Shown here: positions 5,617 through 37,510 of the stretch, piece by piece | Layout of the letters: each line of letters begins with the position of its first letter | How positions within the stretch are numbered: the first letter of the stretch is position 1 | Assembly (NCBI GenBank): GCA_020161575.1 | Contig: JAIUNR010000001.1 | Coordinates: 186,001 to 250,000 of the forward strand | Length of the DNA: 64,000 nucleotides | Reading direction: 5' to 3' | Source of the DNA: Pseudomonadota bacterium | Lineage (GTDB): Bacteria > Pseudomonadota > Alphaproteobacteria > Rhizobiales > Beijerinckiaceae | Notes under the pieces: model-generated | Told to the model about the DNA's origin: nothing | Databases searched by the model: none | The model's input: only the letters and a program-made list of their open reading frames with translations | Position numbers and translations under genes: made by a program

Positions 5617-5646
5617 TTGCCGTCCCATAGGCTTGTCCTATAGTTG
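5617..5646 (+). promoter_or_regulatory. Candidate promoter with inverted-repeat operator upstream of HTH-TorD/FDH genes
   Basis: An inverted repeat ATAGG (5627-5631), 5-bp spacer, CCTAT (5637-5641) sits in the 93-bp gap before the HTH-TorD gene. A TTGCCG at 5617-5622 and TATAGT at 5639-5644, 16 bp apart, form a plausible sigma-70 promoter whose -10 overlaps the right arm. The 20-mer ATAGGCTTGTCCTATAGTTG (5627-5646) matches 18 of 20 positions of the element upstream of tupA at 37491-37510. An overlap with the -10 would suit a repressor. The binding protein is unknown. Confidence 0.6.
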
Positions 5647-5696
5647 CGACATATTCCAATGTAGGGCGCGGTTCAGAGCCGTATTCGGGAAACGCG

Positions 5697-6548
5697 ATGA
5701 GAGACGCAGGGCTTCAGGAAGCGATCCGGGCTGTCGGTGGCATTTCCGCGCTCGCGCGCAGGCTCGGCCTTGCGCAACCCTCCGTCTCGACCTGGACACG
5801 TGTCCCCGCCGAGCGCGTGGCCGCGGTCGAGAGCGTCACCGCGGTTGCGCGCCACGTCCTGCGCCCCGATCTCTATGCCGAGGCCGTGCCGGAGCTTGAT
5901 GCCGTCGACGAGGCGCGGCGCAATCTCTACTTGCTGTTGTCGAACCTCATCCTTCATGTGCCGCATGAGCGCGTGCTGATTGATCTCAAGCGCCTTGGTG
6001 GCGATGGCACCCTGCTCGGGGCGGCGATTTCCGCCCTTGCCGGCGCGGTGGACGTGCCGAATGCGCAGGCCATCGCGCGGGCGCATTTTGACCTCTTCGT
6101 CGGAGTGGGGCGTGGCGAGCTTCTGCCTTACGCCTCCTATTACATGACCGGCTTTTTGTATGAGCGCCCGCTGGTGCGCGCCCGGCAGGACATGAAGCGG
6201 CTCGGGGTGGAGCGCGGCGAGGATCTCTCCGAGCCCGAGGATCACATCGGTTTCCTTCTCGAAATGATGGCCAGCCTGATCGCAAAGCGCATTCCGGCCG
6301 AGCCCGAGGAACAGAAACGCTTCTTCCTGCGCCATCTTGCGCCATGGGCGGAGCGCTTCTTTGGGGATCTGTCGAAGGCGGAAGCCGCGACACCCTTCTA
6401 CCGGGCGGTGGGCCAGCTAGGACAGATTTTCCTCGCCATCGAGCGCGAGGCCTTCGCGCTCGATCCCGTACTCGACGATTCCAACGATCTTACCGCAACG
6501 CATGAGGGGCGCCCGGCGCCAGCGATCTCACAAGGAGCACGCGCATGA
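5697..6548 (+). CDS. YdaS/Cro-type HTH fused to a TorD-family FDH chaperone
   Basis: A 283-residue fusion. Residues about 1-65 look like a Cro/YdaS helix-turn-helix (GGISALARRLGLAQPSVSTW, then RVPAERVAAVE). Residues about 70-270 look like a TorD/DmsD-type all-helical chaperone (RRNLYLLLSNLILHVP, YASYYMTGFLYERPLV, FLLEMMASLI, FFLRHLAPWAERFF). TorD proteins bind Tat-signal molybdoenzyme precursors and hold them until the cofactor is inserted. The gene overlaps the Tat-signal small protein (ATGA at 6545) and precedes the catalytic subunit, so its client is almost surely the alpha subunit. A DNA-binding head on a client-binding chaperone suggests it may regulate its own operon, possibly through the repeat at 5627 (inference). 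The start has GGGAAA upstream. Confidence 0.85.
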   Translation: MRDAGLQEAIRAVGGISALARRLGLAQPSVSTWTRVPAERVAAVESVTAVARHVLRPDLYAEAVPELDAVDEARRNLYLLLSNLILHVPHERVLIDLKRLGGDGTLLGAAISALAGAVDVPNAQAIARAHFDLFVGVGRGELLPYASYYMTGFLYERPLVRARQDMKRLGVERGEDLSEPEDHIGFLLEMMASLIAKRIPAEPEEQKRFFLRHLAPWAERFFGDLSKAEAATPFYRAVGQLGQIFLAIEREAFALDPVLDDSNDLTATHEGRPAPAISQGARA

Positions 6549-6757
6549 GCACGACGAAGGACGAAAAGCGCGAAACGGTTGATCCCGCCCGGCGCAACTT
6601 CCTGCGCGCCGGCCTCGTCGGGGCATCCGCTGCCGCCGTGGGCACGGGCGCGGGCGTAGCCCAGGCGCAGGCTTCCGAGAGCGACAGCGAGAAGAAAAAG
6701 GCCCGTTACAAGGAAACGGACCACGTGAAGAAATATTACGCCACCAACCGCTACTGA
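6545..6757 (+). CDS. FDH-region Tat-signal small protein
   Basis: A 70-residue protein with a twin-arginine signal (ARRNFLRAGLVGASAA) and a short charged mature part ending HVKKYYATNRY. It fits the small FDH-locus Tat-target family (TIGR02811 type) often found directly before the alpha-subunit gene. The mature peptide after AQA would be only about 35 residues and is rich in Lys and Tyr. Probably exported with, or a small companion of, the FDH complex; the exact role is not known. It overlaps the chaperone gene by 4 bp and precedes fdhA by 10 bp. Confidence 0.8.
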   Translation: MSTTKDEKRETVDPARRNFLRAGLVGASAAAVGTGAGVAQAQASESDSEKKKARYKETDHVKKYYATNRY

Positions 6758-6767
6758 GGAAAACGCC

Positions 6768-9740
6768 ATGTTGATCAAGCGGAAAGAAGGACAGGCTTCA
6801 CGCGGCTCGCTGGTGGCGGGCCTTGCGGCGAGCGGCGCTGAGCGGCTGGACCGCCGCGCCTTCCTGCGGCGCTCCGGCCTGACGGCGGGCGGTGTCGCGG
6901 CGATCGGCTCCATCGGCTTCGGCGCGGTGCGCGAGGCGCAGGCGAACATGCCCAAGCCCGGTAAGCCGGTGGAGGTGAAAACCAACATGTGCACCCATTG
7001 TTCGGTGGGCTGCACGGTGAAGGCCGAGGTGCAGGAAGGCGTTTGGGTTGGTCAGGAACCGGCCTGGGACAGCCCGATCAATCGCGGCACTCATTGCGCC
7101 AAGGGCGCGGCCTCGCGCGAGCTGGTGAAGGGCGAGCGGCGCCTCAAATACCCGATGAAGCTCGTCAACGGCGAGTGGCAGCGGATTTCCTGGGATATCG
7201 CCTTCGATGAAATCTCGAAGAAGATGCTGGAAATTCGTGAGAAATCCGGTCCCGAATCGCTCTGGTTCCTTGGTTCGGCGAAGTTCACCAATGAAGCCGC
7301 CTATCTCTTCCGTAAATTCGCTGCCTATTGGGGCACGAACAACGTCGACCATCAGGCGCGCATCTGCCATTCGACGACGGTGGCGGGTGTCGCCAATACC
7401 TGGGGCTATGGCGCCCAGACCAATTCCTACAACGATATCCGCAATGCCAAGACCATAATCTTCATGGGGTCCAACGCGGCGGAAGCGCATCCGGTATCGA
7501 TGCAGCATATCCTCACCGGCAAGGAGACCAACCGCGCCAACGTGATCGTGCTCGATCCGCGCATGACGCGCACGGCCGCGCACGCGACGGAATATGTCCG
7601 TTTCCGCTCGGGCACCGATATCCCGATCATCTGGGGCATGCTCTACCACATCTTCAAGAATGGCTGGGAAGACAAGAATTTCATCGCCCAGCGCGTCTAC
7701 GGCATGGATCTGGTGCGCAAGGAAGTCGAGAAATGGACGCCCGATGAAGTGGAGCGCGTCACCGGCGTGCCGGGCGCCCAGCTGGAGAAGGTTGCCAAGC
7801 AATTCGCGACCGAAAAACCCGCTACCTTCATCTGGTGCATGGGCGCGACGCAGCACACGATCGGCACCGCGAATGTCCGCGCCTTCTGCACCTTGCTGCT
7901 TGCCACCGGCAATGTGGGCGGCTCGGGCATGGGGGCGAACATCTTCCGCGGTCACACCAACGTGCAGGGCGCGACCGATCTCGGCCTCGATGTGACGACG
8001 CTGCCGCTCTATTACGGCCTCGACGAAGCCGCCTGGCGGCATTGGGCGCGCGTCTGGGAGACCGATTATCAATGGTTCTTCGACCGCTTCGACAAGACGA
8101 CTGCGCCGGACGGCAAGGTCACCTCGATGATCAACACGCCCGGCATTCCCTCGACGCGGTGGTTCGACGCGGTGATGCTGCCGAAGGAACAGGTCCAGCA
8201 GCGCGACAAGCTCAAGGGCGTTTTCGTGATGGGCCATGGCGGCAACACGATTCCGCGCATGCCGGATATGGTGAAGGGGCTTGAGGCGCTCGACCTGCTC
8301 GTGGTTTGCGATCCGCACCCCACCACCTATTCCCACATTTCCGGTCGCAAGAACGGCACCTACCTGCTGCCGATCTGCACCAATTTCGAGGCATCCGGTT
8401 CGCGGACGGCGTCGAATCGCTCCATCCAATGGGGCGAGCAGGTTGTCGATCCGATCTTCGAAAGCGCGAACGATTACTGGGTGATGCTCAAATTCGCCGA
8501 GAAGCTCGGCTTCGCGCGGCAGATGTTCAAGAACATCAAGATGGTGAAGGGCAAATACGGCGACGAGCCGGAGGCCGAATCCATCCTGCGCGAGATCAAT
8601 CGCGGCGGTTGGTCGACGGGTTATTGCGGCCAATCGCCCGAGCGCATCAAGGCGCATATGAAACATCAGGACAAGTTCGATATCGTGACCCTGCGCGCGC
8701 CCAAGGATGCGCCGGCGGAGATCGCGGGCGATTATTACGGTCTGCCCTGGCCCTGCTGGGGTACGCCGGAATACCGCCATCCCGGTACCCACCAGCTCTA
8801 CAATACCAACCTTCATGTGAAGGAAGGCGGCGGCACCTTCCGCGCCCGTTTCGGCGTGGAATACGAAGAGCCGCAGGCGGATGGCTCCAAGAAGAAGATC
8901 AATCTCCTGTCGGAAGGCTCCTATTCCAAGGATTCGGAGATCAAGGACGGGTATCCGCAATTCACCTACGGCATGCTCAAGAAACTCGGCTGGGACAAGG
9001 ACCTGACAGAGAACGAGAAGACGGTGATCGAGGGGATCGGCGGCAACGCGCCGGACAATGTGAGCTGGGCGATCGACCTTTCGGGCGGTATCCAGCGTGT
9101 CGCGCTCGAGCATGGCTGCATCCCGTTCGGCAACGGCAAGGCGCGCGTCAATGCGTGGAACCTGCCCGATCCGGTCCCGGTCCATCGCGAGCCGATCTAC
9201 ACCCCGCGCCCGGAGCTGGTCGCCAAATATCCGACACGGCCGGATGTCGCCGCGCAGTTCCGCGTGCCGAATATCGGTTTCACGGTGCAGAAGAACGCGG
9301 TGGACAAGGGAATCGCGAAGGAATTTCCGATCATCCTCTCCTCGGGGCGGCTCGTCGAATACGAGGGCGGCGGCGAGGAAACCCGCTCCAATCCCTGGCT
9401 CGCTGAATTGCAGCAGGACATGTTCGTCGAGATCAACCCGGCCGATGCGGCGGATCGTGGCATCAAGGATGGCGGCTGGGTCTGGGTTTTCGGGCCGGAG
9501 GGCGGTTCGAAGGCGCGCGTGAAAGCGCTCGTCACGGAACGGGTCGGCAAGGGCGTCGCCTGGATGCCGTTCCATTTCGGCGGCTGGTTCCAGGGTGTGG
9601 ATCAGCGCGGCAACTATCCGAAGGGGACAGATCCGGTCGTGCTCGGCGAGAGCGTCAACACCGTGACAACCTACGGCTACGACCCGGTGACAGGCATGCA
9701 TGAAGGCAAGGTCACGCTTTGCCAGATCCGCGCAGCGTAA
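6768..9740 (+). CDS. fdhA: Formate dehydrogenase catalytic (alpha) subunit, Tat-exported, Cys type
   Basis: A 990-residue molybdopterin oxidoreductase that oxidises formate to CO2 in the periplasm and passes electrons to the beta subunit. The N-terminus carries a twin-arginine signal (RR at 29-30, then a hydrophobic stretch and AQA). One [4Fe-4S] cluster is bound by Cys75, Cys78, Cys82 and Cys110. The active-site motif is RICHSTTV with Cys200 in the position held by selenocysteine in E. coli FdnG/FdoG, so no Sec machinery is needed. Long segments typical of bis-MGD enzymes follow (GATQHTIGTANVRAF, GNVGGSGMGANIFRGHTNVQG), and a C-terminal cofactor-binding domain with VFGPEGG. The metal could be Mo or W; a tungstate transporter sharing its upstream repeat points toward W (inference). 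The antisense strand also has a long open frame, a composition artefact. Confidence 0.95.
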   Translation: MLIKRKEGQASRGSLVAGLAASGAERLDRRAFLRRSGLTAGGVAAIGSIGFGAVREAQANMPKPGKPVEVKTNMCTHCSVGCTVKAEVQEGVWVGQEPAWDSPINRGTHCAKGAASRELVKGERRLKYPMKLVNGEWQRISWDIAFDEISKKMLEIREKSGPESLWFLGSAKFTNEAAYLFRKFAAYWGTNNVDHQARICHSTTVAGVANTWGYGAQTNSYNDIRNAKTIIFMGSNAAEAHPVSMQHILTGKETNRANVIVLDPRMTRTAAHATEYVRFRSGTDIPIIWGMLYHIFKNGWEDKNFIAQRVYGMDLVRKEVEKWTPDEVERVTGVPGAQLEKVAKQFATEKPATFIWCMGATQHTIGTANVRAFCTLLLATGNVGGSGMGANIFRGHTNVQGATDLGLDVTTLPLYYGLDEAAWRHWARVWETDYQWFFDRFDKTTAPDGKVTSMINTPGIPSTRWFDAVMLPKEQVQQRDKLKGVFVMGHGGNTIPRMPDMVKGLEALDLLVVCDPHPTTYSHISGRKNGTYLLPICTNFEASGSRTASNRSIQWGEQVVDPIFESANDYWVMLKFAEKLGFARQMFKNIKMVKGKYGDEPEAESILREINRGGWSTGYCGQSPERIKAHMKHQDKFDIVTLRAPKDAPAEIAGDYYGLPWPCWGTPEYRHPGTHQLYNTNLHVKEGGGTFRARFGVEYEEPQADGSKKKINLLSEGSYSKDSEIKDGYPQFTYGMLKKLGWDKDLTENEKTVIEGIGGNAPDNVSWAIDLSGGIQRVALEHGCIPFGNGKARVNAWNLPDPVPVHREPIYTPRPELVAKYPTRPDVAAQFRVPNIGFTVQKNAVDKGIAKEFPIILSSGRLVEYEGGGEETRSNPWLAELQQDMFVEINPADAADRGIKDGGWVWVFGPEGGSKARVKALVTERVGKGVAWMPFHFGGWFQGVDQRGNYPKGTDPVVLGESVNTVTTYGYDPVTGMHEGKVTLCQIRAA

Positions 9741-9754
9741 GGGGGAATTGAAAC

Positions 9755-10351
9755 ATGGCACGCATGAAGTTTCTCTGCGACGCGGATCGGTGCATCGAAT
9801 GCAACGCCTGCGTCACCGCCTGCAAGAACGAGCACGAGGTGCCCTGGGGCATCAACCGCCGCCGTGTCGTCACCATCAACGACGGCAAGCCGGGCGAGCG
9901 CTCGGTCTCCATGGCCTGCATGCATTGCACGGATGCGCCCTGCGCCTCCGTCTGCCCGGTGAATTGCTTCTACACCACGGCGGATGCGGTGGTGCTGCAT
10001 TCGAAGGACCTGTGCATCGGCTGCGGCTATTGCTTCTACGCCTGCCCGTTCGGCGCGCCGCAATATCCCAAGACCGCGAATTTCGGTTCGCGCGGCAAGA
10101 TGGATAAGTGCACCTATTGCGCCGGCGGTCCCGAGGTTGATGGCAGCCAGGCGGAGTTGGACAAATACGGTCGCAACCGCCTCGCCGAAGGAAAATTGCC
10201 GCTCTGCGCCGAGATGTGTTCCACCAAGGCGCTGCTTGCCGGCGATGGCGACATCATCGCCCAGATCTATTCGCAGCGCGTGGCCAAGCGCGGCTACGGC
10301 TCCGGTGCCTGGGGCTGGAAGGTCGCGTACAAGGAAACGATTTCGCTTTGA
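9755..10351 (+). CDS. fdhB: Formate dehydrogenase iron-sulfur (beta) subunit
   Basis: A 198-residue ferredoxin-type subunit that relays electrons from the catalytic to the membrane subunit. Four Cys groups are visible: CIECNACVTACKNE, CMHCTDAPCASVCPV, CIGCGYCFYACPFG, and CTYC with a later LCAEMC, consistent with four [4Fe-4S] clusters as in other FDH beta subunits. No signal peptide, so it is probably co-exported with the Tat-carrying alpha subunit. There is no C-terminal membrane anchor of the FdnH type; the protein ends YKETISL. It lies 14 bp after fdhA, with GGGGGAA before the ATG. Confidence 0.93.
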   Translation: MARMKFLCDADRCIECNACVTACKNEHEVPWGINRRRVVTINDGKPGERSVSMACMHCTDAPCASVCPVNCFYTTADAVVLHSKDLCIGCGYCFYACPFGAPQYPKTANFGSRGKMDKCTYCAGGPEVDGSQAELDKYGRNRLAEGKLPLCAEMCSTKALLAGDGDIIAQIYSQRVAKRGYGSGAWGWKVAYKETISL

Positions 10352-10359
10352 ACCCGCCG

Positions 10360-10377
10360 CGCGGGCTTGGGCCCGCG
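10360..10377 (+). terminator. GC hairpin between beta and gamma subunit genes
   Basis: CGCGGGC (10360-10366) pairs with GCCCGCG (10371-10377) around a TTGG loop and is followed by a pyrimidine-rich stretch (TTGTTCTTTCTTT). It resembles a weak intrinsic terminator or an RNA-stabilising hairpin inside the operon and could lower gamma-subunit expression relative to alpha and beta. Confidence 0.5.
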
Positions 10378-10410
10378 TTGTTCTTTCTTTCGAAGAGAAG
10401 GAGCCGGAAA

Positions 10411-11424
10411 ATGGCTTCGACATTCTCCAAAGTCTTGCTTGCTGGGCTGACGGCGTTTTTCCTTTCTGTTTCCCTGCTCGCGCCTCCGGCCGCCGCGCAG
10501 GCACCCGCCAGCGTCAACCCCACCGCGCAATCGGTGAAGGAACAGCAGCTTCTCGATGCGCTCAAACCGGGGCAGGCCTTGTCCGGCCGCGCATCGATTC
10601 CCAACAAGAATGCCGCGACGCTTATCCAGCCGGGGCGCGATTGGCGGGCCTATAATCAGGAAACCCTGCCGCGCCTTGCCGCGATCGCCGTGCTGGGTGC
10701 ACTGGCGGCGCTGGTGTTGTTCTATCTCCTGCGCGGCAAAATCATGATCGATGCCGGGCGCTCCACCATGCGCATCCTGCGCTTCGGCGCGATCGACCGT
10801 TTCGTCCACTGGCTGACCGCGACGAGCTTCCTCACGCTGGCGCTGACCGGCGCGAATGTCACCTTCGGCAAGACCCTGCTCGCGCCGATCATGGGGGCGG
10901 AGGCTTTCGCCGCCTGGGCCGGCTTTGCCAAGCTCATCCATAATTATGTCGGTTTCGCCTTCATGGCGGGCGTGGCGCTGACCTTCCTCATCTGGGTGAA
11001 GGACAACATCCCGAACATGATCGATGTGAAATGGTTCGCGGCGGGGGGCGGTCTGCTCTCGAAAGGCTCGCATCCGCCGGCGAAACGCTTCAACGGCGGA
11101 CAGAAGATCGTCTTCTGGAGCGTGGTCCTTGGCGGAGCCTTCATGTCGATTTCGGGCTGGCATCTGCTCTTTCCGACCAATGAAGGGTTGGCCGAGGTGC
11201 AATGGCACGCAACCATCCACGGCACGCTTGCCTTCGTGATGCTCGCGCTCATCCTCGCGCATATCTATATCGGCTCCGTGGGCATGGAGGGCGCCTTCGA
11301 CGCGATGGGCTCCGGCGAGGTCGATCTCAACTGGGCCAAAGAGCATCACTCGCTCTGGGTCAAGGAAGAGCAGGCGCGCAAGGGGACCTCGCGGATTTCC
11401 GGCGCGGCGCAACCGGCGGAATGA
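10411..11424 (+). CDS. Formate dehydrogenase cytochrome b (gamma) subunit
   Basis: A 337-residue membrane subunit that anchors the complex and delivers electrons to quinone through b hemes. The ATG at 10411 follows AAGGAG and opens a signal-like hydrophobic segment (residues about 8-30, cleavage near AAAQA). A periplasmic stretch, a helix near 92-112, and the cytochrome b core with four more helices follow. Candidate heme ligands are the histidines in DRFVHWLTA, KLIHNYVGF, ISGWHLLF and LAHIYIGSVG. The extended N-terminus with an extra helix is typical of the alphaproteobacterial gamma subunit. It ends the structural gene set; a clear terminator follows. Confidence 0.93.
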   Translation: MASTFSKVLLAGLTAFFLSVSLLAPPAAAQAPASVNPTAQSVKEQQLLDALKPGQALSGRASIPNKNAATLIQPGRDWRAYNQETLPRLAAIAVLGALAALVLFYLLRGKIMIDAGRSTMRILRFGAIDRFVHWLTATSFLTLALTGANVTFGKTLLAPIMGAEAFAAWAGFAKLIHNYVGFAFMAGVALTFLIWVKDNIPNMIDVKWFAAGGGLLSKGSHPPAKRFNGGQKIVFWSVVLGGAFMSISGWHLLFPTNEGLAEVQWHATIHGTLAFVMLALILAHIYIGSVGMEGAFDAMGSGEVDLNWAKEHHSLWVKEEQARKGTSRISGAAQPAE

Positions 11425-11447
11425 CAGGCGGACAATTCCTCGCTAAG

Positions 11448-11471
11448 AAGGGCGCTTCGAGCGCCCTTTTT
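11448..11471 (+). terminator. Intrinsic terminator after FDH structural genes
   Basis: GGGCGCT (11450-11456) and AGCGCCC (11460-11466) form a perfect 7-bp stem with a TCG loop, extended by two A-T pairs and followed by five T residues. It lies 24 bp after the gamma-subunit stop and only about 12 bp before the mobB start. Confidence 0.85.
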
Positions 11472-11482
11472 GTTGGTTCTAC

Positions 11483-11998
11483 ATGAAAATCATCGGTTTC
11501 GCGGGCTGGAGCGGGGCAGGCAAGACGACGCTGTTGACCGCCTTGATCCCCGAGCTTGCCGGGCGCGGCCTGAAGGTCTCGACGCTGAAACACGCGCATC
11601 ACCGTTTCGAGATCGATCATCCCGGCAAGGACAGCCACAGCCATCGCATGGCTGGGGCATCCGAGGTGCTGGTCTCCTCGGCGAATCGTTATGCGCTTGT
11701 CCGCGAATTGCGCGGGGAGGCGGAAAGGACGCTGCCGGAGCTGCTCGCCCTTCTCTCGCCGGTCGATCTTGTGCTGGTCGAAGGTTTCAAGCGCGAGAAA
11801 CACCCCAAGATCGAGGTGTTCAGAAGCGCCAATCGCAAGCCCCTGCTTTACCCCGATGACTCGATGATCCGGGCCGTGGCGACCGATCTGCCGCTTCCCG
11901 ATTGCGCCTTGCCGCAGGCGGGGCTCAACGATATCGCCGCGATCGCGGATCATGCGATGGCCGCCGCAATGCCGGTCGCGGCGATTTTTCCGCGCTGA
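11483..11998 (+). CDS. mobB: Molybdopterin-guanine dinucleotide biosynthesis adaptor MobB
   Basis: A 171-residue P-loop GTP-binding protein that assists MobA in making the MGD cofactor. The Walker A motif GWSGAGKTT is at residues about 7-15, followed by STLKHAHH and later DLVLVEGFKREKHPKIEV, a typical MobB signature. The start ATG lies just 12 bp after the T-run of the FDH terminator and lacks an obvious Shine-Dalgarno, so expression probably depends on read-through. It is followed 10 bp later by moeA. Confidence 0.93.
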   Translation: MKIIGFAGWSGAGKTTLLTALIPELAGRGLKVSTLKHAHHRFEIDHPGKDSHSHRMAGASEVLVSSANRYALVRELRGEAERTLPELLALLSPVDLVLVEGFKREKHPKIEVFRSANRKPLLYPDDSMIRAVATDLPLPDCALPQAGLNDIAAIADHAMAAAMPVAAIFPR

Positions 11999-12008
11999 GG
12001 GAGGCTCG

Positions 12009-13271
12009 ATGGCCCAGCTTTCCGATGATCGTTTCGCCTTTGGCGGCTCCCTGTTGGGGCTCGACGCGGCGCTTGACGACCTTGCCCGGCGCCTGAGACC
12101 CGTCGTGAGTAGCGAGACCGTAGCGCTCGATGCGGCGCGGGGCCATGTGCTGGCGCAGGATGCCCTGTCCGGGATCGATGTTCCCGGTTTCGATAATTCC
12201 GCGGTCGATGGTTACGCTTGCCGCCATGCCGATCTTGGCGAGGGCGAGACATGCCTGCCGGTAAGCGCGCGCATCGCCGCCGGTATGCGCGATATCGCGC
12301 CGCTCGTCCCCGGCACGGCGGCACGCATCTTTACGGGCGCGATGATGCCGGAGGGGGCGGATACCGTCTTCATGCAGGAGGATGTGCGCGTCGAGGGCGA
12401 TCGCGTGATCCTGCCGCCGGGGCTGAAGCCGGGGGCGAACAGGCGCTTTGCCGGCGAGGATTTCGCCGCCGGAGCGCCGCTTCTGGCGGCGGGAACGCGG
12501 CTTGGGCCGCGTCATATCGCCGCCTTGGCGGCGACGGGCATGCGCAGGATCGCGGTGCGCAGGCCGCTTCGCGTCGCGATTTTCTCGACGGGCGACGAAG
12601 TGATGGACGGGGCGGCTACCACGGCCTCCGATCTGCCCAAAGGTGCGCAATTCGATTCGAACCGCCCGCTGCTCGCGGCACTTCTCGCCACGCGGGGCAT
12701 GGAAGTGATCGATCTGGGCATCCTGCCGGATCGCAAGGAGGCCATCGCGCGGGCCTTGGGCGAAGCCGCGCGAGCCTGCGATGCGATCCTGACTTCCGGC
12801 GGTGTTTCGACCGGCGAGGAAGACCATGTGAAAGCAGCGGTCGAGGCGGCGGGAAAGCTGGATTTCTGGCGTCTGGCCATCAAACCGGGACGCCCGATCG
12901 CCATGGGCACGATCGGCGGCAAGGCCTTTCTGGGCATGCCGGGCAATCCGGCGGCGGTTTACGTGACTTTCGTGCGCTTTGTCGGGCCGGTGCTGGATAT
13001 GCTCGCCGGCGCCGTGCCGCTCCGACCGGCGCCGATGTCCGTGATCTCGGGGTTCTCTTATCGGAAAAAGGCGGACAGGCGGGAATATGTCCGGGTTTCG
13101 ATAAGCGCCGGCGCGTCCGGGCCGGTGGCGCATCGCTATCCGCGCGATGGTGCGGCGCTGATCTCATCCCTGACGCAAACGGACGGGTTGGTCGAGCTGG
13201 AGGAGAGCCGTCTCGCGGTCGAGAAGGGCGATGTGCTTGCCTATTACCCCTATGCGAGCCTGTCGGGCTGA
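12009..13271 (+). CDS. moeA: Molybdopterin molybdenumtransferase MoeA
   Basis: A 420-residue enzyme that inserts molybdate (or tungstate, depending on paralogue) into adenylylated molybdopterin. Typical MoeA blocks are present: PGFDNSAVDGYA near residue 60, ARIFTGAMMPEGADTVFMQED, FSTGDEV, DAILTSGGVSTGEEDHV, and AFLGMPGNPAAVYVTF. The ATG at 12009 is chosen because GAGGGAGG precedes it and the protein then begins at the usual MoeA N-terminus; an upstream in-frame ATG at 11952 lies inside mobB. Because the locus also has tungstate genes elsewhere in the window, which metal this copy handles cannot be told from sequence alone. Confidence 0.93.
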   Translation: MAQLSDDRFAFGGSLLGLDAALDDLARRLRPVVSSETVALDAARGHVLAQDALSGIDVPGFDNSAVDGYACRHADLGEGETCLPVSARIAAGMRDIAPLVPGTAARIFTGAMMPEGADTVFMQEDVRVEGDRVILPPGLKPGANRRFAGEDFAAGAPLLAAGTRLGPRHIAALAATGMRRIAVRRPLRVAIFSTGDEVMDGAATTASDLPKGAQFDSNRPLLAALLATRGMEVIDLGILPDRKEAIARALGEAARACDAILTSGGVSTGEEDHVKAAVEAAGKLDFWRLAIKPGRPIAMGTIGGKAFLGMPGNPAAVYVTFVRFVGPVLDMLAGAVPLRPAPMSVISGFSYRKKADRREYVRVSISAGASGPVAHRYPRDGAALISSLTQTDGLVELEESRLAVEKGDVLAYYPYASLSG

Positions 13272-13283
13272 AACCTTGCCTGC

Positions 13284-28571: not shown

Positions 28572-28574
28572 CGC

Positions 28575-29735: not shown

Positions 29736-29737
29736 GA

Positions 29738-30244
29738 TCAGACTTTCGTTTCGGGGGGAAAGGCGTCGAGCTGGCGCAAGGCTTCGCCGATGATCATCGC
29801 GCCGGCAACCGCGATATTGAGCGAGCGCAGGCCGGCACGCTGGGGAATGTAGATCCGGGCCTCGGCTGCTTCATGCACATGCGCCGGCGCGCCCGCGCTC
29901 TCGCGCCCAAGCATGACGATATCGCCGGGCTGGAAGACGAAACGGGTATGCGCAACCGCGCCATGGGTTGTGGCCAACACGAGACGGGCTCTTCTTTCGG
30001 TGCAGAAAGCCTCGAAATGGCGGAAGGAAACGTGACGCCGGATGACGGCATGGTCGAGATAATCGAGCCCCGCGCGTCTGAGGTTCCGGTCGCTGGCGTC
30101 GAATCCGGCGGGCTCGATCAGGTCGACCGGGACACCAAGACAGGCCCCCAGCCGGAACAGCGTTCCGGCGTTCTGCGGAATGTCCGGCTCGAAAAGCGCA
30201 AGCCTCAGAGGGGCGATGCGCTCAATTTCCTTTTGATCAACCAT
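29738..30244 (-). CDS. trmL: tRNA (cytidine/uridine-2'-O-)-methyltransferase TrmL
   Basis: A 168-residue SPOUT methyltransferase that modifies the wobble base of tRNA-Leu. The N-terminal [23 protein letters not shown], and the C-terminal knot with [29 protein letters not shown] are diagnostic. It is divergent from petA with 230 bp between; the gene pair trmL / petABC is a common Hyphomicrobiales arrangement. Confidence 0.94.
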
Positions 30245-30308
30245 ATCTGTGGCATCTAGCTGTCGTGAAGGGGATGGACAAGCGGCATCGACGATGCCAT
30301 TGAGCCTC

Positions 30309-30337
30309 TTGTTCAGGATCGTTCCAAATTCTGATAT
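30309..30337 (+). promoter_or_regulatory. Candidate petABC promoter
   Basis: TTGTTC (30309-30314) and TGATAT (30332-30337) are separated by 17 bp in the 230-bp gap upstream of petA, leaving a leader of roughly 130 bases. It is the best sigma-70-like pair I can find there; unverified. Confidence 0.4.
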
Positions 30338-30474
30338 GCCCGAAGAATCAGGCAGGCTATGCGCGGCGCGACGCTGCGGGGAAGCTCCTGTTTTTCGCGG
30401 CGCATTTTTGGGCGCGAGGATGAGGCGGGTCTGCCCTACGAGGCACGGACCCTGCGACTGAGGAAGGGCTAAAC

Positions 30475-31014
30475 GTGGCTGACCATACGATGAGTGAACC
30501 GAACCGCCGTGATTTTCTGTTCCTCGCCACCGGCGCGGCGGGTGTCGTCGCGGGCGGCGCGGCCGTCTGGCCGCTGATTTCGCAGATGTCGCCGGATGCT
30601 TCGACGATCGCCGCCGGCGCGCCGGTCGAGGTCGATCTCGGGCCGATCGGCGAAGGCAAGGCGATCACGCTGAAATGGCGCGGCAAGCCGATTTTCGTCC
30701 GCCATCGTACGGCGAAGGAAATCGAAGAAGCCAAGAAGGACGACGCCGCCGCCCTGCCGGACAAGCAGGCCGATTCGGCCCGCGTGAAAGCCTTCGAGGG
30801 CAAGGCCCAGGAAAAATGGATCGTCGTTTACGGCAACTGCACCCATCTGGGCTGCGTGCCGATCGGCTTCTCCGGCGATTACAACGGCTGGTATTGCCCC
30901 TGCCACGGCTCGCATTACGACAATTCCGGCCGCATCCGCAAAGGTCCGGCCCCGCGCAATCTCGACATCCCGGAATTCGCGTTCCTGTCGGCGTCCAAGA
31001 TCCGCATCGGCTGA
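30475..31014 (+). CDS. petA: Cytochrome bc1 complex Rieske iron-sulfur subunit
   Basis: A 179-residue subunit that takes electrons from quinol and passes them to cytochrome c1. A Tat-type N-terminal anchor (NRRDFLFLATGAAGVVAGGAAVWPL) precedes the head domain with the two [2Fe-2S] boxes CTHLGC and CPCHGSHYD. The start is GTG at 30475 after GAGGAAGGGC; an ATG at 30490 is an alternative. First gene of petABC. Confidence 0.96.
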   Translation: MADHTMSEPNRRDFLFLATGAAGVVAGGAAVWPLISQMSPDASTIAAGAPVEVDLGPIGEGKAITLKWRGKPIFVRHRTAKEIEEAKKDDAAALPDKQADSARVKAFEGKAQEKWIVVYGNCTHLGCVPIGFSGDYNGWYCPCHGSHYDNSGRIRKGPAPRNLDIPEFAFLSASKIRIG

Positions 31015-31038
31015 TCGCATTCAAGGTGAGACAAGAGA

Positions 31039-32313
31039 ATGGCTGAGCATCATTCCTCCTATGTGCCGAAGACCGGCATCGAACGCTGGATCGACGCGCG
31101 GTTGCCGATCATCCGCCTGATGCACGATTCCGCGGTGTCCTACCCGGTTCCGCGCAACCTCAACTACTTCTGGACGTTCGGCGGCATCCTGATGTTCATG
31201 CTGGTCGCGCAGATCGTGACCGGCATCGTTCTCGTGATGCATTATACGCCGCATGTCGATTTCGCCTTCGCCTCCGTCGAGCACATCATGCGCGACGTGA
31301 ATTACGGCTGGCTGCTGCGCTACATGCACGCCAACGGCGCCTCGATGTTCTTCATCGCGGTCTATATCCACATCTTCCGCGGCATGTATTACGGCTCCTA
31401 CAAGGCGCCGCGCGAATTGCTCTGGATCCTCGGCGTCGTGATCTTCCTGCTCATGATGGCCACGGCCTTCATGGGGTATGTGCTTCCCTGGGGGCAGATG
31501 TCCTTCTGGGGCGCGACCGTGATCACCAACCTCTTCTCGGCCATTCCGGTGATCGGCGATCCGATCGTGACCTGGCTCTGGGGCGGCTATTCGGTCGACA
31601 ACCCGACGCTCAACCGCTTCTTCTCGCTGCATTACCTGCTGCCCTTCATGATCCTTGGCGTGGTGGTTCTCCATGTCTGGGCGCTGCATCATGTCGGCCA
31701 GAACAACCCGACCGGCGTCGAGGTGAAGAATGTCGCGAAGGATACGGTTCCCTTCACGCCCTTCGCGACCGTGAAAGACCTCTTCGCGATGGTCTGCTTC
31801 ATGATGGTGTTCGGCTGGTTCGTGTTCTATCACCCGAACTTCCTCGGCCATGCGGATAACTACATCCCGGCCGATCCGCTGAAGACCCCGGCGCATATCG
31901 TGCCCGAATGGTACTTCCTGCCCTTCTACGGCATCCTGCGCGCGATCCCTGACAAGCTTGGCGGTGTCGTGGCGATGTTCGCGGCGATCGCGATCCTGGC
32001 CTTCCTGCCCTGGCTCGATACCTCGAAGGTCAAGTCCGGCAAGTATCGCCCGACATTCAAGATCTTCTTCTGGATCTTCGTGGTGGTCTCGGTGCTGCTC
32101 GGCTATACCGGCTCGCAGCCGACCGACAAGGTGGTGCTCGCGCTCGGCGGCCGCACGATCCTCGACATGGTCGGCTTCGCGCAGATCCTCACCGTGATGT
32201 ATTTCGCCTATTTCGTGATCGCCCTGCCGTTGCTCGGTCTGTTCGAGAAACCGAAAGCGGTGCCGGCTTCCATCGCCGATTCCGTGCTCGGCGACGCCAA
32301 GGCGGCGAAGTGA
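31039..32313 (+). CDS. petB: Cytochrome b of the bc1 complex
   Basis: A 424-residue membrane protein with the two b-heme sites and both quinone sites. Typical blocks are [49 protein letters not shown] and the Qo-site [16 protein letters not shown]. Eight hydrophobic helices can be counted, with heme-ligand His pairs in helices two and four. It sits 24 bp after petA and 25 bp before petC. Confidence 0.97.
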
Positions 32314-32338
32314 GCGGGACGAGAGGAAGGAAAACGCT

Positions 32339-33211
32339 ATGAAAATCGCTTCTCGTCATCTTGTCGCGGCCTTTGCCCTTCTCGGGCTCTCCGGCCTTGC
32401 CGCCCCGGCCCTCGCGGCCGGCGGCGCCGAGCATCCGCCGGCGCAGAAATGGAGCTTCTCGGGCCCGTTCGGCACTTTTGACCGCGCGCAGCTTCAGCGC
32501 GGCTTCAAGGTCTATCGCGAGGTTTGCTCCTCCTGCCACGGGCTGGAAAAGATCTCGTTCCGCAACCTCTCGCAGCCCGGCGGTCCGGGCTTCACCGAGG
32601 GACAGGTCAAGACGCTGGCCGCGGAATACAAGGTCAAGGACGGCCCGAACGAAAGCGGCGACATGTTCGAGCGCCCCGGTCGCCCGGCGGATCGCTTTCC
32701 GGCGCCGTTCCCGAATGCCGAAGCGGCCAAGGCCGCGAATGGCGGCGCGGTACCGCCGGATTTCTCGGTGATCGCCAAGGCCCGCACCTATGAGCGCGGC
32801 TTCCCGATGTGGCTCATCGATATCTTCACGCAGTATCAGGAGCAGGGGCCGGATTACATCGTCGCGCTGCTCAACGGCTACGAGGTTGCGCCGAAGGGCG
32901 TCACCGTCGAGGCCGGGCTGCACTACAACAAGTACTTCCCCGGCAACAAGATCGCGATGGCCAACCCGCTCGTCGCGGTGATCGACGATAACGGCAAGCC
33001 GAATGATCCGGGTTTCTACACGGACGGCACGCCGGTGACGCGCGAGCAGGTCGCGCGCGATCTCGCGGCTTTCCTCATGTGGGCGGCTGAGCCCAAACTC
33101 GAGGAGCGCAAGCATCTCGGCGCCAAGGTGATGCTGTGGCTGCTGCTTCTGGCAGGGTTGCTCTATTTCACCAAGAAGCGCATCTGGTCGCGTCTCGAAG
33201 GCGCGCATTGA
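32339..33211 (+). CDS. petC: Cytochrome c1
   Basis: A 290-residue periplasmic, membrane-anchored cytochrome. A signal peptide (LVAAFALLGLSGLAAPALAAGG) is followed by the heme motif CSSCHG and, further on, the conserved PPDFSVIAKAR and KIAMANPL region. A C-terminal helix (VMLWLLLLAGLLYFTKKRIW) anchors it. It completes the bc1 operon and is followed by a strong terminator. Confidence 0.96.
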   Translation: MKIASRHLVAAFALLGLSGLAAPALAAGGAEHPPAQKWSFSGPFGTFDRAQLQRGFKVYREVCSSCHGLEKISFRNLSQPGGPGFTEGQVKTLAAEYKVKDGPNESGDMFERPGRPADRFPAPFPNAEAAKAANGGAVPPDFSVIAKARTYERGFPMWLIDIFTQYQEQGPDYIVALLNGYEVAPKGVTVEAGLHYNKYFPGNKIAMANPLVAVIDDNGKPNDPGFYTDGTPVTREQVARDLAAFLMWAAEPKLEERKHLGAKVMLWLLLLAGLLYFTKKRIWSRLEGAH

Positions 33212-33231
33212 GCGCCGCCTGATGGATCAGC

Positions 33232-33259
33232 AAGGGGCCCTGCGGGCCCCTTTTCTTTT
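33232..33259 (+). terminator. Intrinsic terminator after petABC
   Basis: AAGGGGCCC (33232-33240) pairs with GGGCCCCTT (33244-33252) around a TGC loop and is followed by TTCTTTTT. It lies about 20 bp after the petC stop. Confidence 0.9.
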
Positions 33260-33352
33260 TCTGTTGGCATGCGCCTTCGGGGACGGAAGCCGGCTTTATT
33301 CGCCCCGGTGGTTCTGGCAGGCTCGTATCGTCTTTTCTTTGCCGGGCCTTCC

Positions 33353-33883
33353 ATGCAGACACTTCGTGACGCGATCCGCACTATTCCCGATTATCCCAAG
33401 CCGGGTATCCAGTTTCGGGATATCTCGACGCTTCTGGGCAATCCCCGCGCTTTCCGCCGCGCGGTGGATGAGCTTGTTCAGCCCTATGCCGGCGCGCGCA
33501 TCGCCAAGGTGGCGGGGATAGAGGCGCGCGGCTTCATCCTCGGCGGCGCGATCGCCCATCAGCTTTCCTGTGGTTTCGTGCCGATCCGCAAGAAGGGCAA
33601 GCTCCCGCATCAGACGGTTTCGATCGCCTATGCGCTGGAATACGGCACCGACGAGATGGAGATCCATGTCGATGCGGTGGAGAAGGGCGAGAAGGTCATT
33701 CTCGTCGACGATCTGATCGCGACCGGCGGCACGGCTTCCGCTGCGGTGCGCCTTCTCCAGAAGCTCGGGGCGGAAGTGGTCGCGGCCTGTTTCGTGATCG
33801 ATCTGCCCGAACTGGGCGGGGCGGCGAAGATCGAGGCGCTCGGCGTGCCGGTGCGCACGCTCGTCGCCTTCGAGGGGCATTGA
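33353..33883 (+). CDS. apt: Adenine phosphoribosyltransferase
   Basis: A 176-residue purine salvage enzyme making AMP from adenine and PRPP. Diagnostic motifs are [13 protein letters not shown] near the N-terminus, [22 protein letters not shown], and the PRPP loop [13 protein letters not shown]. The ATG at 33353 gives the usual family length; longer frames start in the terminator region. Ends 3 bp from the convergent MaoC gene. Confidence 0.95.
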
Positions 33884-33886
33884 ACG

Positions 33887-34882
33887 TCAGTCCCGCGCCT
33901 CCAGCAGCGATATGCCGGAGAAAGCGAAAACGGGGATACCCTTCTGGTTCAGCGCGTAATTGCGCAGGTTGAGGATACCCCAGCCGGGACGCGAGGCGGA
34001 GCGCCGCGCGCCCTCGATGCGCGTGAAATAGGTAAGCGTATCGCCGGCGAGGACGGGCCTCAGCCACAGGAGATTGTCAAAGCCCATGCCCGGCCCGCGT
34101 TTCGGCGTGCTTTGCGCGGGTTGCCGCGCCCAGAAATCGGTCATCACGCGCATCCAGGCCGAGGCCGTATGCCAGCCGGAGGCGGAGAGCCCGCCGAAAT
34201 GCGTCGCGCGTCCGCCCTCTTCCGAGAGGTGGAAGGGCTGCGGATCGAAGCGTTTCGCGAAATCGATGATGTTCTCCGGCGTGAACGCATAACTTCCGAG
34301 GCGCAACACCACGCCGGGGCGAAGATCGTCGACATAGCCGAATTGCGCGGCATTCGCTTCCGCTGGAAACTCCTCGGCTGCTGGCGGCACGATCCGGCTT
34401 CCGGACAGATCATCATCGGCGGCGCCCGGCTCGCGACGGGCGAACATGATGAGATTGACCTGCTCCATCACCGAAACGCCATCCTGATTGGTGATATCGA
34501 AGCGGAAATCAACGAAGCCGCGATCAGGCTTGCTGGATGAGGCACGCCGCCCGAGAACTTCAAGCCGGCCCGTGAGCGTATCGCCCACGCGCACAGGGGC
34601 GAGCCAGCGCAATTTCGAGATTCCGGGCGCGCCCATGCCAGAAGAGTTGAGCAACATGCCATAGGTGAGCAGGCGCATGTTCACCCCGGCGCTGTACCAG
34701 CCCGAGGCGATCAGGCCGCCCATCATGCGCGCCTGATCCGAGGCCGCGTCGAGATGCATCGGCTGCGGGTCGAACTCGCGGGCGAAGGCCAGCATCGGCG
34801 CTTCGTCGATCCGCGCCGAGCCATATTCCCATGAGGCGCCGGGGACGAAATCCTCGAAGTAGAGTCTGTCGTTCCCCGTCAT
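33887..34882 (-). CDS. Tandem double-MaoC (hotdog) dehydratase-like protein
   Basis: A 331-residue protein made of two similar MaoC-type halves. Each half has a YFEDFVPGASWEYGS or VLRLGSYAFTPENIIDFAKR lead, a FDPQPMHLD / FDPQPFHLS catalytic-type motif, GGLIASGWYSA / GGLSASGWHTA and LRWLAPVRVGDTLTG / LLWLRPVLAGDTLTY. In many relatives these are two separate genes next to ychF; here they are fused. Probably hydrates or dehydrates an enoyl-CoA; the substrate is unknown. 9 bp separate it from ychF. Confidence 0.87.
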   Translation of the reverse strand: MTGNDRLYFEDFVPGASWEYGSARIDEAPMLAFAREFDPQPMHLDAASDQARMMGGLIASGWYSAGVNMRLLTYGMLLNSSGMGAPGISKLRWLAPVRVGDTLTGRLEVLGRRASSSKPDRGFVDFRFDITNQDGVSVMEQVNLIMFARREPGAADDDLSGSRIVPPAAEEFPAEANAAQFGYVDDLRPGVVLRLGSYAFTPENIIDFAKRFDPQPFHLSEEGGRATHFGGLSASGWHTASAWMRVMTDFWARQPAQSTPKRGPGMGFDNLLWLRPVLAGDTLTYFTRIEGARRSASRPGWGILNLRNYALNQKGIPVFAFSGISLLEARD

Positions 34883-34891
34883 GGCGCAGCT

Positions 34892-35989
34892 TCAATTCGC
34901 GAAGCGGAAATGCAGCACGTCGCCGTCCGCGACGACATATTCCTTACCTTCGAGGCGGAATTTGCCAGCTTCGCGCGCGCCGGCTTCGCCCTTGAGCGCG
35001 ACGTAATCGGCATAGGCGATGGTTTCGGCGCGGATGAAGCCTTTCTCGAAATCGGTATGGATCACGCCAGCGGCCTGCGGCGCCTTGGTGCCGGTCTCGA
35101 TGGTCCAGGCCCGCGCCTCTTTCGGACCGACGGTGAAATAGGTCACGAGGCCGAGCAGCGCATAACCTTCGCGGATGACGCGGTTGAGGCCAGGCTCCTC
35201 AAGGCCGATGGCATCGAGATAATCCTTCTGCTCGGCGGCATCGAGAACGGCGATCTCGCTTTCGATCTTCGCCGAGACGACGACGGCGCGCGCGCCCTCG
35301 GCCTTTGCCCGCTCGAACACCTTCGCGGTGAAGGCATTGCCCTTGTCCGCCGAGGCTTCCTCGACATTGCAGACATAAAGGACCGGCTTCGATGTGAGCA
35401 GCCCCAGCATCTCGAAAAGCTTGCGCTCATGCGGCTTCACATCCACGAGGCGTGCGGGCTTGCCGTCGCGCAGCAGGGTCAGCGCGCGCGACATGAGATC
35501 GAAGCTTTCCTTCGCCTCCTTGTCGCCGCCCTTGGCCTTCTTCTCGATGGCGGTGATCCGCTTTTCCATCGAGTCGAGATCCGCGAGCATCAACTCGGTT
35601 TCGATCGTCTCGATATCGGCCAGCGGGTCGATCTTGCCCTCGACATGGGTGATGTCCCCATCCTCGAAGCAGCGCACGACATGGGCAATCGCATCCACCT
35701 CGCGGATATTGGCGAGGAACTGGTTGCCGAGCCCTTCGCCCTTGGAGGCGCCGCGCACCAGCCCGGCGATATCGACGAAGGTGAGGCGGGTGGGGATGAT
35801 CTCCTTCGAACCGGCGATGGCGGCAAGCGCATCGAGGCGGCCGTCAGGCACGGCGACATCGCCGACATTCGGTTCGATCGTGCAGAACGGATAATTCGCC
35901 GCCTGCGCTGCGGCCGTTTGCGTGAGCGCGTTGAAAAGGGTCGATTTGCCGACATTCGGCAGGCCGACAATTCCGCATTTGAAACCCAT
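34892..35989 (-). CDS. ychF: Redox-regulated GTPase/ATPase YchF (OLA1)
   Basis: A 365-residue TRAFAC P-loop protein. The G1 motif is GLPNVGKSTLFNAL, followed by PFCTIEPNVG, the DIAGLV G3 motif, and the YchF-type TGS-like C-terminus (YFTVGPKEARAWTIETGTKAPQAAGVIHTDFEKGF, shortened here to the key residues). It associates with ribosomes and stress control. It lies between pth and the MaoC gene in a conserved leftward cluster. Confidence 0.95.
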   Translation of the reverse strand: MGFKCGIVGLPNVGKSTLFNALTQTAAAQAANYPFCTIEPNVGDVAVPDGRLDALAAIAGSKEIIPTRLTFVDIAGLVRGASKGEGLGNQFLANIREVDAIAHVVRCFEDGDITHVEGKIDPLADIETIETELMLADLDSMEKRITAIEKKAKGGDKEAKESFDLMSRALTLLRDGKPARLVDVKPHERKLFEMLGLLTSKPVLYVCNVEEASADKGNAFTAKVFERAKAEGARAVVVSAKIESEIAVLDAAEQKDYLDAIGLEEPGLNRVIREGYALLGLVTYFTVGPKEARAWTIETGTKAPQAAGVIHTDFEKGFIRAETIAYADYVALKGEAGAREAGKFRLEGKEYVVADGDVLHFRFAN

Positions 35990-36057
35990 TTGGGCGATCC
36001 GTTCCGTGCGTGAGAAGTGGTTTCCGGCGGTCTTTTCAGCCGCTTGGGCGGGGAAGT

Positions 36058-36675
36058 CTAGTCCTTTTTCGCGCCGGGAAGGGTGATGCCCTTATGCCCG
36101 CGCCCCTCCATGCGGAGATGGACCTTGGATTGAAAATGCTCGCCTTCGCCCTTGACGAGCAGATCCGCGAATTCTGCGGTGGCGTCGCACAGATCCTCGA
36201 CCCACGGCATCTCGGCCTTGGCGAAATCGCCGAGCACGAAATTATGCACCAGCGCCTTGTCGCCGGGATGGCCGATGCCGAGGCGCACGCGCGGATACTC
36301 GTTGCCGCAATGCGCCGTAATCGAGCGCAGGCCGTTATGGCCGGCATTGCCGCCGCCCTTTTTCATGCGCAATCTCGCCGGGGCGAGATCGAGCTCGTCG
36401 TGAAAGACATAAACGTCGTCGAGCGCAATCTTGTAGAAGCGCATGGCCTCGCCCACCGCGCGGCCGCTCTCGTTCATGAAGGTCGTGGGCTTGAGAAGAA
36501 CCACTTTCTCGCCGCCGATCGTGACCTCGCTCGCCTCCCCCTGGAAACGCGTGCGCCAGGGCGTGCCGCGCCAATGGCGCTGGATGGCGTCGAGCGCCAT
36601 GAATCCGATATTGTGACGATTGCCGGCATAGCGGGCGCCGGGATTCCCGAGGCCGACGAGAAGATGCATCGTCAT
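36058..36675 (-). CDS. pth: Peptidyl-tRNA hydrolase
   Basis: A 205-residue hydrolase that recycles peptidyl-tRNA. N-terminal [40 protein letters not shown], and [28 protein letters not shown] are the family fingerprints with catalytic His. The first codons ATGACGATG offer two starts six bases apart. Downstream of rplY in the conserved rplY-pth-ychF order. Confidence 0.96.
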
Positions 36676-36694
36676 GCCCTCATCAGGTTGGAAA

Positions 36695-36720
36695 GGATCG
36701 CGGCCTCATGGCCGCGATCC
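36695..36720 (-). terminator. Strong hairpin between rplY and pth
   Basis: GGATCGCGGCC (36695-36705) and GGCCGCGATCC (36710-36720) form a perfect 11-bp stem with a 4-base loop, followed on the minus strand by a short TTTCC. It can act as partial terminator or RNA-stabilising element between the ribosomal protein gene and pth. Confidence 0.65.
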
Positions 36721-36728
36721 GTTTTCAA

Positions 36729-37313
36729 TCAGGCTTCTTCCTTCGAGCCGCCGGCGGCAACGATGGTCGCGACGGTCGCGTCCTTCTCGTGGCTGATCAG
36801 CTTGGCGCCTGCCGGGAGGGAGAGCGCCGAAACATGGATCGAATCGCCGATCTTCGCCTTGGAGACATCGACGGTGATGTGATCCGGGATGTTGTCCGCC
36901 GGCACCATGAACTCGAGCGAATGATGCACGAGGTTGAGCGCGCCGCCGGCCTTGAGGCCCGGCGAAGTCTCCTGGCCCGTGACATGGACCGGGATTTCAA
37001 CCTTCACCATAGCGCCTTCGCCGAGGCGGAGGAAATCGACGTGGATGGGGAAGTCGCGCACGACATCGAGCTGGTAATCGCGCGGGATGGCGCGGATCTT
37101 CTCGCCGCCGACATTGATCTCGAACACCGTGGTCAGGAAGTGACCGGCATAGATCAGGCGGTTGGTCTCGCGGAAATCGAGCGAGATGGAAACGGGCGAC
37201 TGGCCGGCGCCGTAAATGACGGCCGGGACGCGGCCTTCACGACGAACAGCACGGGCGGCCCCCTTACCGGCCCGCTCGCGGCGCTGGGCCGAGAGCTGCT
37301 TAACTTTGGACAT
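36729..37313 (-). CDS. rplY: Ribosomal protein bL25 (Ctc/TL5 type)
   Basis: A 194-residue long-form bL25 that binds 5S rRNA. The N-terminal half begins MSKVKQLSAQRRERAGKGAA and includes GRVPAVIYGAG and AIPRDYQLDVVRDFPIHVDF; the C-terminal Ctc-type domain has VPVHVTG-like IPVHVTGQETSPGLKAGGAL and HITVDVSKAKIGDSIHVS. The ATG at 37313 follows GGAGAGACAC; an open frame reaching 37592 is only an extension into the tup promoter. prs-rplY-pth-ychF is normally contiguous; here tupAB separates prs from rplY. Confidence 0.94.
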   Translation of the reverse strand: MSKVKQLSAQRRERAGKGAARAVRREGRVPAVIYGAGQSPVSISLDFRETNRLIYAGHFLTTVFEINVGGEKIRAIPRDYQLDVVRDFPIHVDFLRLGEGAMVKVEIPVHVTGQETSPGLKAGGALNLVHHSLEFMVPADNIPDHITVDVSKAKIGDSIHVSALSLPAGAKLISHEKDATVATIVAAGGSKEEA

Positions 37314-37489
37314 GTGTCTCTCCAAACAAAAACAGGGGCCAACGGCGCTCCCTCGCGGAAGGCGCCAGCCCCGAACTTGCCGCTTCCTCCAAGGGTGTAA
37401 GAACGGCTCCGGTTCCATAAGGAAAAAACGTGGTCGATGCAAGCCGGCGCGGCGATCGCGCGGGGCGGGATGCCTACGCCACCATAAAA

Positions 37490-37510
37490 TATAGGCTTTT
37501 CCTATACTTG
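37490..37510 (+). promoter_or_regulatory. Inverted-repeat operator upstream of tupA
   Basis: TATAGG (37490-37495) and CCTATA (37501-37506) form a perfect 6-bp inverted repeat with a 5-bp spacer; TATACT (37503-37508) looks like a -10 overlapping the right arm, though I find no good -35. The 20-mer ATAGGCTTTTCCTATACTTG (37491-37510) matches the element before the HTH-TorD/FDH genes (5627-5646) at 18 of 20 positions. It ends 62 bp before the tupA ATG. Confidence 0.65.

Follow-up and report, generated by a model that had tools for sequence, protein, structure and literature searches.

Why should a short inverted repeat recur almost unchanged in front of two sets of genes as distinct as those for the assembly of a formate dehydrogenase (FDH) and those for the likely uptake of tungstate? 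This question is raised by the 64-kb window analysed here, i.e. the entire stretch of 64,000 nucleotides. The first-pass annotation had described two 20-bp elements, each with an inverted repeat overlapping a possible -10 box, and had considered a chance match of this quality to be very rare; renewed inspection bears out these points. The two copies occupy positions 5627-5646 and 37491-37510 and are identical at 18 of 20 positions, and the possible -10 boxes, as read from the sequence, are TATAGT (5639-5644) and TATACT (37503-37508). The consensus, even with up to three mismatches, matches only these two places in the window, and 100 dinucleotide shuffles yielded no match at all. The core of the element is the 15-bp palindrome ATAGG-N5-CCTAT, which in the tup copy is extended to 6-bp arms (TATAGG, 37490-37495; CCTATA, 37501-37506) and which is separated from the next ATG, again by reading the sequence, by 55 bp in the case of HTH-TorD (ATG 5697) and by 58 bp in the case of tupA (ATG 37564, in frame with 37573). 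Most likely, the palindrome shared by the FDH operon and the tungstate-uptake gene is bound by an unusual chaperone with a repressor domain of the phage type, the HTH-TorD protein listed in Table 1.

Table 1. Predicted regulatory sites and genes of the two loci within the 64-kb window
Feature	Coordinates	Strand	Basis and remarks
predicted HTH-torD promoter	5617..5644	+	-35 TTGCCG 5617-5622, 16-bp spacer, -10 TATAGT 5639-5644; read from sequence
predicted operator 1, ATAGG-CTTGT-CCTAT	5627..5641	.	between -35 and -10, overlaps -10
HTH-TorD, 283 aa	5697..6548	+	Cro-type HTH, residues about 6-62; TorD/DmsD chaperone domain, about 107-222
fdhA, molybdopterin-dependent formate dehydrogenase catalytic subunit	6768..9740	+	Pfam; TIGR01591 E 3.1e-138, below cut-off
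fdhB, FDH3-type iron-sulfur subunit	9755..10351	+	NF038355 337 bits, cut-off 240
fdhC, cytochrome b subunit	10216..11424	+	TIGR01583 154 bits, cut-off 115.85, ORF residues 186-387
mobB, molybdopterin-guanine dinucleotide cofactor assembly protein	11483..11998	+	tblastn with MobB part of L195, 61.5% identity
moeA, metal insertase of cofactor	11952..13271	+	PF03453, PF00994, PF03454
predicted operator 2, ATAGG-CTTTT-CCTAT	37491..37505	.	overlaps possible -10 TATACT 37503-37508
tupA-like substrate-binding protein	37564..38403	+	PF12849; NF041772 TupA 217.9 bits, cut-off 400; start inferred
tupB-like permease	38307..39113	+	NF038017 above cut-off; NF041773 TupB 143.4 bits, cut-off 320

Operator 1 is followed by HTH-TorD and the FDH genes and preceded by a DUF3306 gene, the stop codon of which ends at 5603. 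The true start of fdhC lies downstream of the start of its open reading frame, and that of moeA, the frame of which overlaps mobB, may likewise be later. Ahead of the operon (206-5603), the window contains genes for a biotin/lipoate-ligase-like protein, DUF6505, DUF6352, DUF3305 and DUF3306, and relatives of the first three hold the same place in G287, G227 and G230. HTH-TorD itself combines two domains with Pfam matches to PF15943 (E 6.6e-15) and PF02613 (E 3.3e-28). By sequence as well as by fold the helix-turn-helix (HTH) is a phage Cro-type domain: a profile search retrieved the Cro structures 3bd1 (E 7.9e-13) and P22 Cro 1rzs (E 0.0038), and in a structure model of the protein (mean pLDDT 84.6, pTM 0.70) the HTH part resembles Xfaso1 Cro (3bd1) with a TM-score of 0.78 to the target, 43% identity and a Foldseek E of 0.029. 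The remainder of the model matches DmsD and YcdY, with a Foldseek E of 2.8e-05 for 3efp_B; HTH-TorD has the Nitrate_red_del domain and the DmsD/YcdY-like fold of the TorD/DmsD chaperones.

In the whole genome (G000, 3.19 Mb), the exact 15-bp core is found three times and its reversed control not once. The third copy (C7:132909-132923; L003 1501-1515) is situated 50 bp ahead of a 483-aa reading frame that has neither a Pfam match nor a known FDH link; the end of this frame consists of GGTPGGGSA repeats. Looser searches are less telling, since a scan with one mismatch returned 27 places versus 50 for the control, so that near matches carry no signal, and the relaxed pattern CATAGSNNNNNSCTAT returned 65 places in 14 genomes versus 75 for the control, which renders a wider regulon unreadable by pattern alone. 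Of the places that were inspected, many fall within genes and some are at LysR or cupin genes; the matches of the relaxed pattern were not used. The first-pass annotation had also asked whether matches lie before mod or moa genes; no such target occurs among the element sites that the pattern searches found.

If the element were scattered at random, as the first-pass annotation had asked to be checked, its distribution among relatives should reveal it. In a sample of 17 genomes of the genus, whose named relatives are Rhabdaerophilum, HTH-TorD is present in 15, and the exact core occurs 19 times, in 16 of the 17 genomes, as opposed to 8 occurrences of the reversed control. Fourteen of these cores precede HTH-TorD-fdhA, two precede tupA, one precedes a second FDH and two precede other genes (L003, as above, and L126, between LysR and CoA-transferase genes), which excludes random scatter. 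Both genomes devoid of HTH-TorD, G301 and G305, have one and no exact core, respectively, and one control match each, and the core in G301 has no evident FDH link. In the HTH-TorD site of G082, a T replaces one of the two G/C bases. The shorter motif ATAG-N7-CTAT is found at -160 to -40 of HTH-TorD in 15/15 genus genomes. Within a sample of 297 genomes of the order, 26 of which encode HTH-TorD, it holds the same interval in 25, the exception being G052 with the variant ATAA-N7-TTAT (L024 about 1381-1395). The HTH-TorD palindrome of G312 (L301 about 1418-1432) is close to this variant, both arms being changed alike as in G052. A third set of named genomes, which overlaps the genus and order samples just as these overlap each other, covered the best 80 of 235 HTH loci; the motif lies 63-141 bp ahead of the gene in 77 of these best 80, the loci without it being L161 and L182 (both HTH-TorD) and L214 (HTH-MobB). 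In the same 80 loci only five further sites occur in 716,515 bp, and none lies in the 5-kb regions ahead of 20 TorD genes that lack the HTH (100 kb altogether). One of these 20 genes, a paralogue, comes from a genome in which HTH-TorD is present as well. Conservation before fdh, which the earlier annotation had left to be examined, hence holds across the order and tracks the HTH domain. That two promoter regions came to look alike by mere chance is hardly credible in the face of the empty shuffles, the conservation before HTH-TorD and the footprint before tup described below, even though one of the three cores in this genome and the core of G301 lack an evident FDH link; for operator 1, chance resemblance was rejected on account of the shuffles, the reversed control and the conservation.

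Beside these main sites, G306 (C76) has an exact operator (L130 1501-1515) 142 bp before the ATG of an FdnG-like FDH (1658-2722). In this second FDH the usual selenocysteine position is taken by an in-frame TGA, and a selD-like gene with an AIRS domain lies on the other strand, which suggests, in this one genome, a selenoprotein. In addition, two Bradyrhizobium genomes (G171 and G194; L319 1487, L322 1552) have a CATAGS-N5-SCTAT palindrome about 110 bp ahead of related cupin genes.

The association with the HTH rather than with the chaperone becomes apparent where the former is joined to another protein. Three HTH-MobB fusions were found (L195 5001-5852, L225 5001-5822 and L214 5001-5777), of which the first two, with MobB parts matching PF03205 at E 8.6e-51 and 7.8e-52, carry the site 90 bp upstream. 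MobB genes without the HTH showed no full site in seven upstream regions of 1.5 kb, where the best score was 8.0 of 9. Accordingly, it is the HTH, not TorD, that the element accompanies. Moreover, recognition-helix residue 32 of HTH-TorD, which directly follows a predicted helix (27-31), varies together with base 5 of the site. When sites with a score of 8 of 9 or more were kept, there were 94 protein-site pairs, or 92 after duplicates were merged, and 89 rows remained once MobB fusions and short rows were left out. Base 5 is C in 42 of 45 rows with Asn32 and G in 31 of the 44 others, and with both half-sites scored, 81 of the 89 rows agree with residue 32. The pattern agrees with a recognition code for phage Cro proteins. 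On supported branches there are only four independent pairs, in about 3.2 of which the base follows the residue and in none of which, on average, it opposes it, so that the link falls short of significance.

A different protein could in principle recognize the same sequence, namely a LysR-type FDH regulator such as FdsR or a relative thereof. ATAG-N7-CTAT has the T-N11-A spacing of LysR sites, and fds promoters often bear a similar palindrome, commonly GATAG-N7-CTATC. Furthermore, a LysR gene, here called FdsR on account of its place, stands before fdsG in this genome, and the motif is no more than 350 bp away from fdsG in 8 of 12 loci of genomes with the HTH (the duplicate L327 left out) and in 16 of 27 loci without HTH-TorD. 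Such sites occur, for instance, at L337 about 1371-1385 (G000 C6) and, upstream of fdsG, in L339-L365, with or without HTH-TorD. At E <= 1e-40, however, no FdsR match exists in 16 of the 26 HTH-TorD genomes of the order sample and in 12 of the 15 of the genus, nearly all of which have the element, no LysR-like match was seen in the flanks of the best 80 of 235 HTH loci, and the element is absent upstream of the 20 HTH-less TorD genes. FdsR is thus not regularly present where the element is and, missing from most HTH-TorD genomes and from the locus flanks, cannot be its general binder; as the binder of the element a LysR-type regulator is quite improbable. The palindrome of the fds promoters is, by contrast, probably the site of the LysR regulator, and FdsR may well be bound there. 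As candidate targets of HTH-TorD the fds promoters were rejected because the motif is as frequent without HTH-TorD (16/27) as with it (8/12); fds sites that resemble HTH-TorD sites were found only in two Bradyrhizobium genomes, G171 (= G314) and G315, and none was found in G143 and G216.

With HTH-TorD as the preferred binder, the position of the element hints at the direction of control. The promoter arrangement of the window recurs in the upstream regions of HTH-torD throughout the genus, where the right arm forms the -10 box (CCTATAxT) behind a TTGC box, which in the window is 16 bp away. By a simple test, 32 of the 77 loci with a site have a right arm that merges with TTGAC, a likely -35 box; 8 show the -10 form, and 37 conform to neither promoter form. 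Overlap with the predicted core promoter in two ways, in two clades, fits a repressor better than an activator, and as in Cro systems a palindromic operator lies at the core promoter beside the gene of its own regulator, the promoter hexamers being predictions. Repression by HTH-TorD is therefore considered likely. An activator, or a repressor that senses tungstate, molybdate or the cofactor in place of unfinished FdhA, is a somewhat unlikely alternative: with tup and mobB-moeA among the targets, a metal or cofactor signal would make sense too, but an activator would need a fixed upstream place, and the nearest structures to the chaperone part of HTH-TorD include DmsD, of a family that binds signal peptides.

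Whether the same control extends to tungstate uptake depends on operator 2, which is flanked by rplY and the tupA-like gene with the permease gene behind. The open reading frame of tupB overlaps tupA at its start, and its true start is later. As the TupA and TupB models score under their cut-offs, tungstate is only the likely substrate, not a proven one. No ATPase gene (tupC) evidently adjoins tupA and tupB (37564-39113), and prs follows on the opposite strand. In both this genome and G082, the tup locus lies between prs and rplY; comparison of the two regions revealed that 12 of 12 arm bases are kept while the flanks are identical at 36 of 120 positions. The flanks therefore agree as unrelated DNA would, and only the element is shared. 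Elsewhere it is missing. Among 26 tupA copies in 24 HTH-TorD genomes of the order sample, a site within 300 bp of tupA occurs in these two genomes alone; over the same 300 bp the other 24 copies score 7.5 of 9 at best, and 19 of them have no score above 8.0 in up to 2.5 kb. In the genus, it is again only G000 and G082 among 15 HTH-TorD genomes (17 tupA copies), the 15 further copies having no score above 7.0 within 1.5 kb. In G106 and G070, an Mrp/NUBPL gene upstream of tup is preceded, at a distance of about 145 bp, by a site that was discarded, being located inside predicted reverse ORFs of near relatives. Conservation before tup, the second half of what the first-pass annotation had proposed to look for, consequently stands for these two genomes, in otherwise unalignable DNA, and fails in the other tup-bearing HTH-TorD genomes examined.

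This confinement, together with the third exact core before a gene without known link, would be expected if HTH-TorD bound operator 1 only, for autoregulation, and operator 2 were bound by nothing or by something else. Yet both tup sites keep all arm bases within diverged DNA, and exact cores number just 19 in 17 genomes, which makes this reading unlikely. The tungstate link by HTH-TorD thus appears well marked but confined to two related genomes. As the distance between tupA and HTH-TorD is less than 20 kb in 10 of 24 genomes but 31 kb in this one, tup, standing apart from the FDH cluster, may have gained its own operator in this lineage.

The shared regulator of FDH assembly and tungstate uptake suggested by the first-pass annotation, with HTH-TorD as the candidate, is supported by the genome scans and the conservation, and the tie between the operator and the Cro-type HTH of a protein for FDH maturation now has a wider base than the initial observation. 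Since the palindrome is the predicted site of HTH-TorD, the protein that helps to build the enzyme probably also controls the genes of the enzyme. The computation shows the element, how closely it accompanies the HTH, its position at the predicted promoter and the homology of the domain to Cro; on this basis, a regulatory circuit can be proposed in which a dimer of HTH-TorD would bind the 15-17-bp palindrome across the core promoter and thereby repress its own operon, HTH-torD, fdhA, fdhB, fdhC, mobB and moeA, in an autoregulatory loop, and in which the same repressor would control tupAB elsewhere on the chromosome in this species and G082. That the element is the operator of HTH-TorD, with repression of the own operon and additional control of tupAB in these two genomes, is regarded as probable. 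TorD-family chaperones bind the signal peptides of their enzymes, as established for DmsD. Occupation of the TorD domain by unfinished FdhA would weaken DNA binding, and enzyme awaiting its cofactor would in turn raise the expression of the chaperone, the cofactor genes and tungstate uptake; unfinished FdhA as the signal is a tentative proposal, slightly more doubtful than not.

Several known systems share parts of this design. Phage Cro repressors (Xfaso1 Cro 3bd1, P22 Cro 1rzs; PF15943 YdaS_toxin, PF14549 P22_Cro) have the HTH fold and sequence family in common with HTH-TorD and likewise have a 15-17 bp palindrome at a core promoter, whereas the HTH here is fused to an enzyme-maturation protein and stands ahead of metabolic genes, outside a phage switch. 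The chaperones TorD, DmsD and NarJ share the C-terminal domain, which is here encoded beside its own FDH, but a DNA-binding domain is absent from the members in the compared papers and structures. ModE and other Mo/W-responsive regulators would similarly link oxyanion uptake with Mo/W enzymes; however, the arms are ATAGG/CCTAT rather than of the TATATA type, and HTH-TorD consists of YdaS/Cro and TorD domains only and has no ModE domain. FdsR, the LysR regulator of the fds formate dehydrogenase, has a like core, ATAG-N7-CTAT, near FDH genes but belongs to another protein family and is missing from most element-bearing genomes. In working, though with no kinship claimed, the closest parallel is provided by BirA-like bifunctional enzyme-repressors, in which a protein of the pathway carries a DNA-binding domain and governs that pathway; the partner of the DNA-binding domain is here a chaperone or MobB.

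A search of the open literature, with subscription papers mostly outside its range, retrieved no paper that deals with an HTH-TorD regulator, with the element or, for these bacteria, with a regulator that links FDH assembly and tungstate uptake. According to the available part of PMC13197769 (2026), the W-dependent FDH of Methylorubrum extorquens needs MoeA1, MobB and FdhD, and coordinated control of the moeA1-mobB-tupBCA cluster is suggested there with no regulator named in that part. In PMC4464133, dmsD-fdhGHI operons are accompanied by DUF3305/3306, and the new molybdoprotein domain fusions in the accessible sections of PMC6147048 include none of the HTH-TorD kind.

Taken further, a phage Cro domain may have been joined to more than one W/Mo maturation protein (TorD and MobB), with its operator in front, to yield a factor through which the genes for FDH, cofactor assembly and tungstate uptake are informed of enzyme or cofactor that is still unfinished, a separate tup locus being tied in by a copy of the operator; this general scheme is put forward at close to, if just under, even confidence. 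The HTH-MobB fusions represent a natural domain swap that would separate DNA binding from the sensor. For the control of FDH, cofactor and tungstate supply, the analysis offers a candidate regulator that is known by name, together with its proposed 15-bp site and a few targets. If true, a chaperone would gauge its own client and set enzyme, cofactor and metal supply together, which would also be relevant to the making of CO2-reducing formate dehydrogenases.
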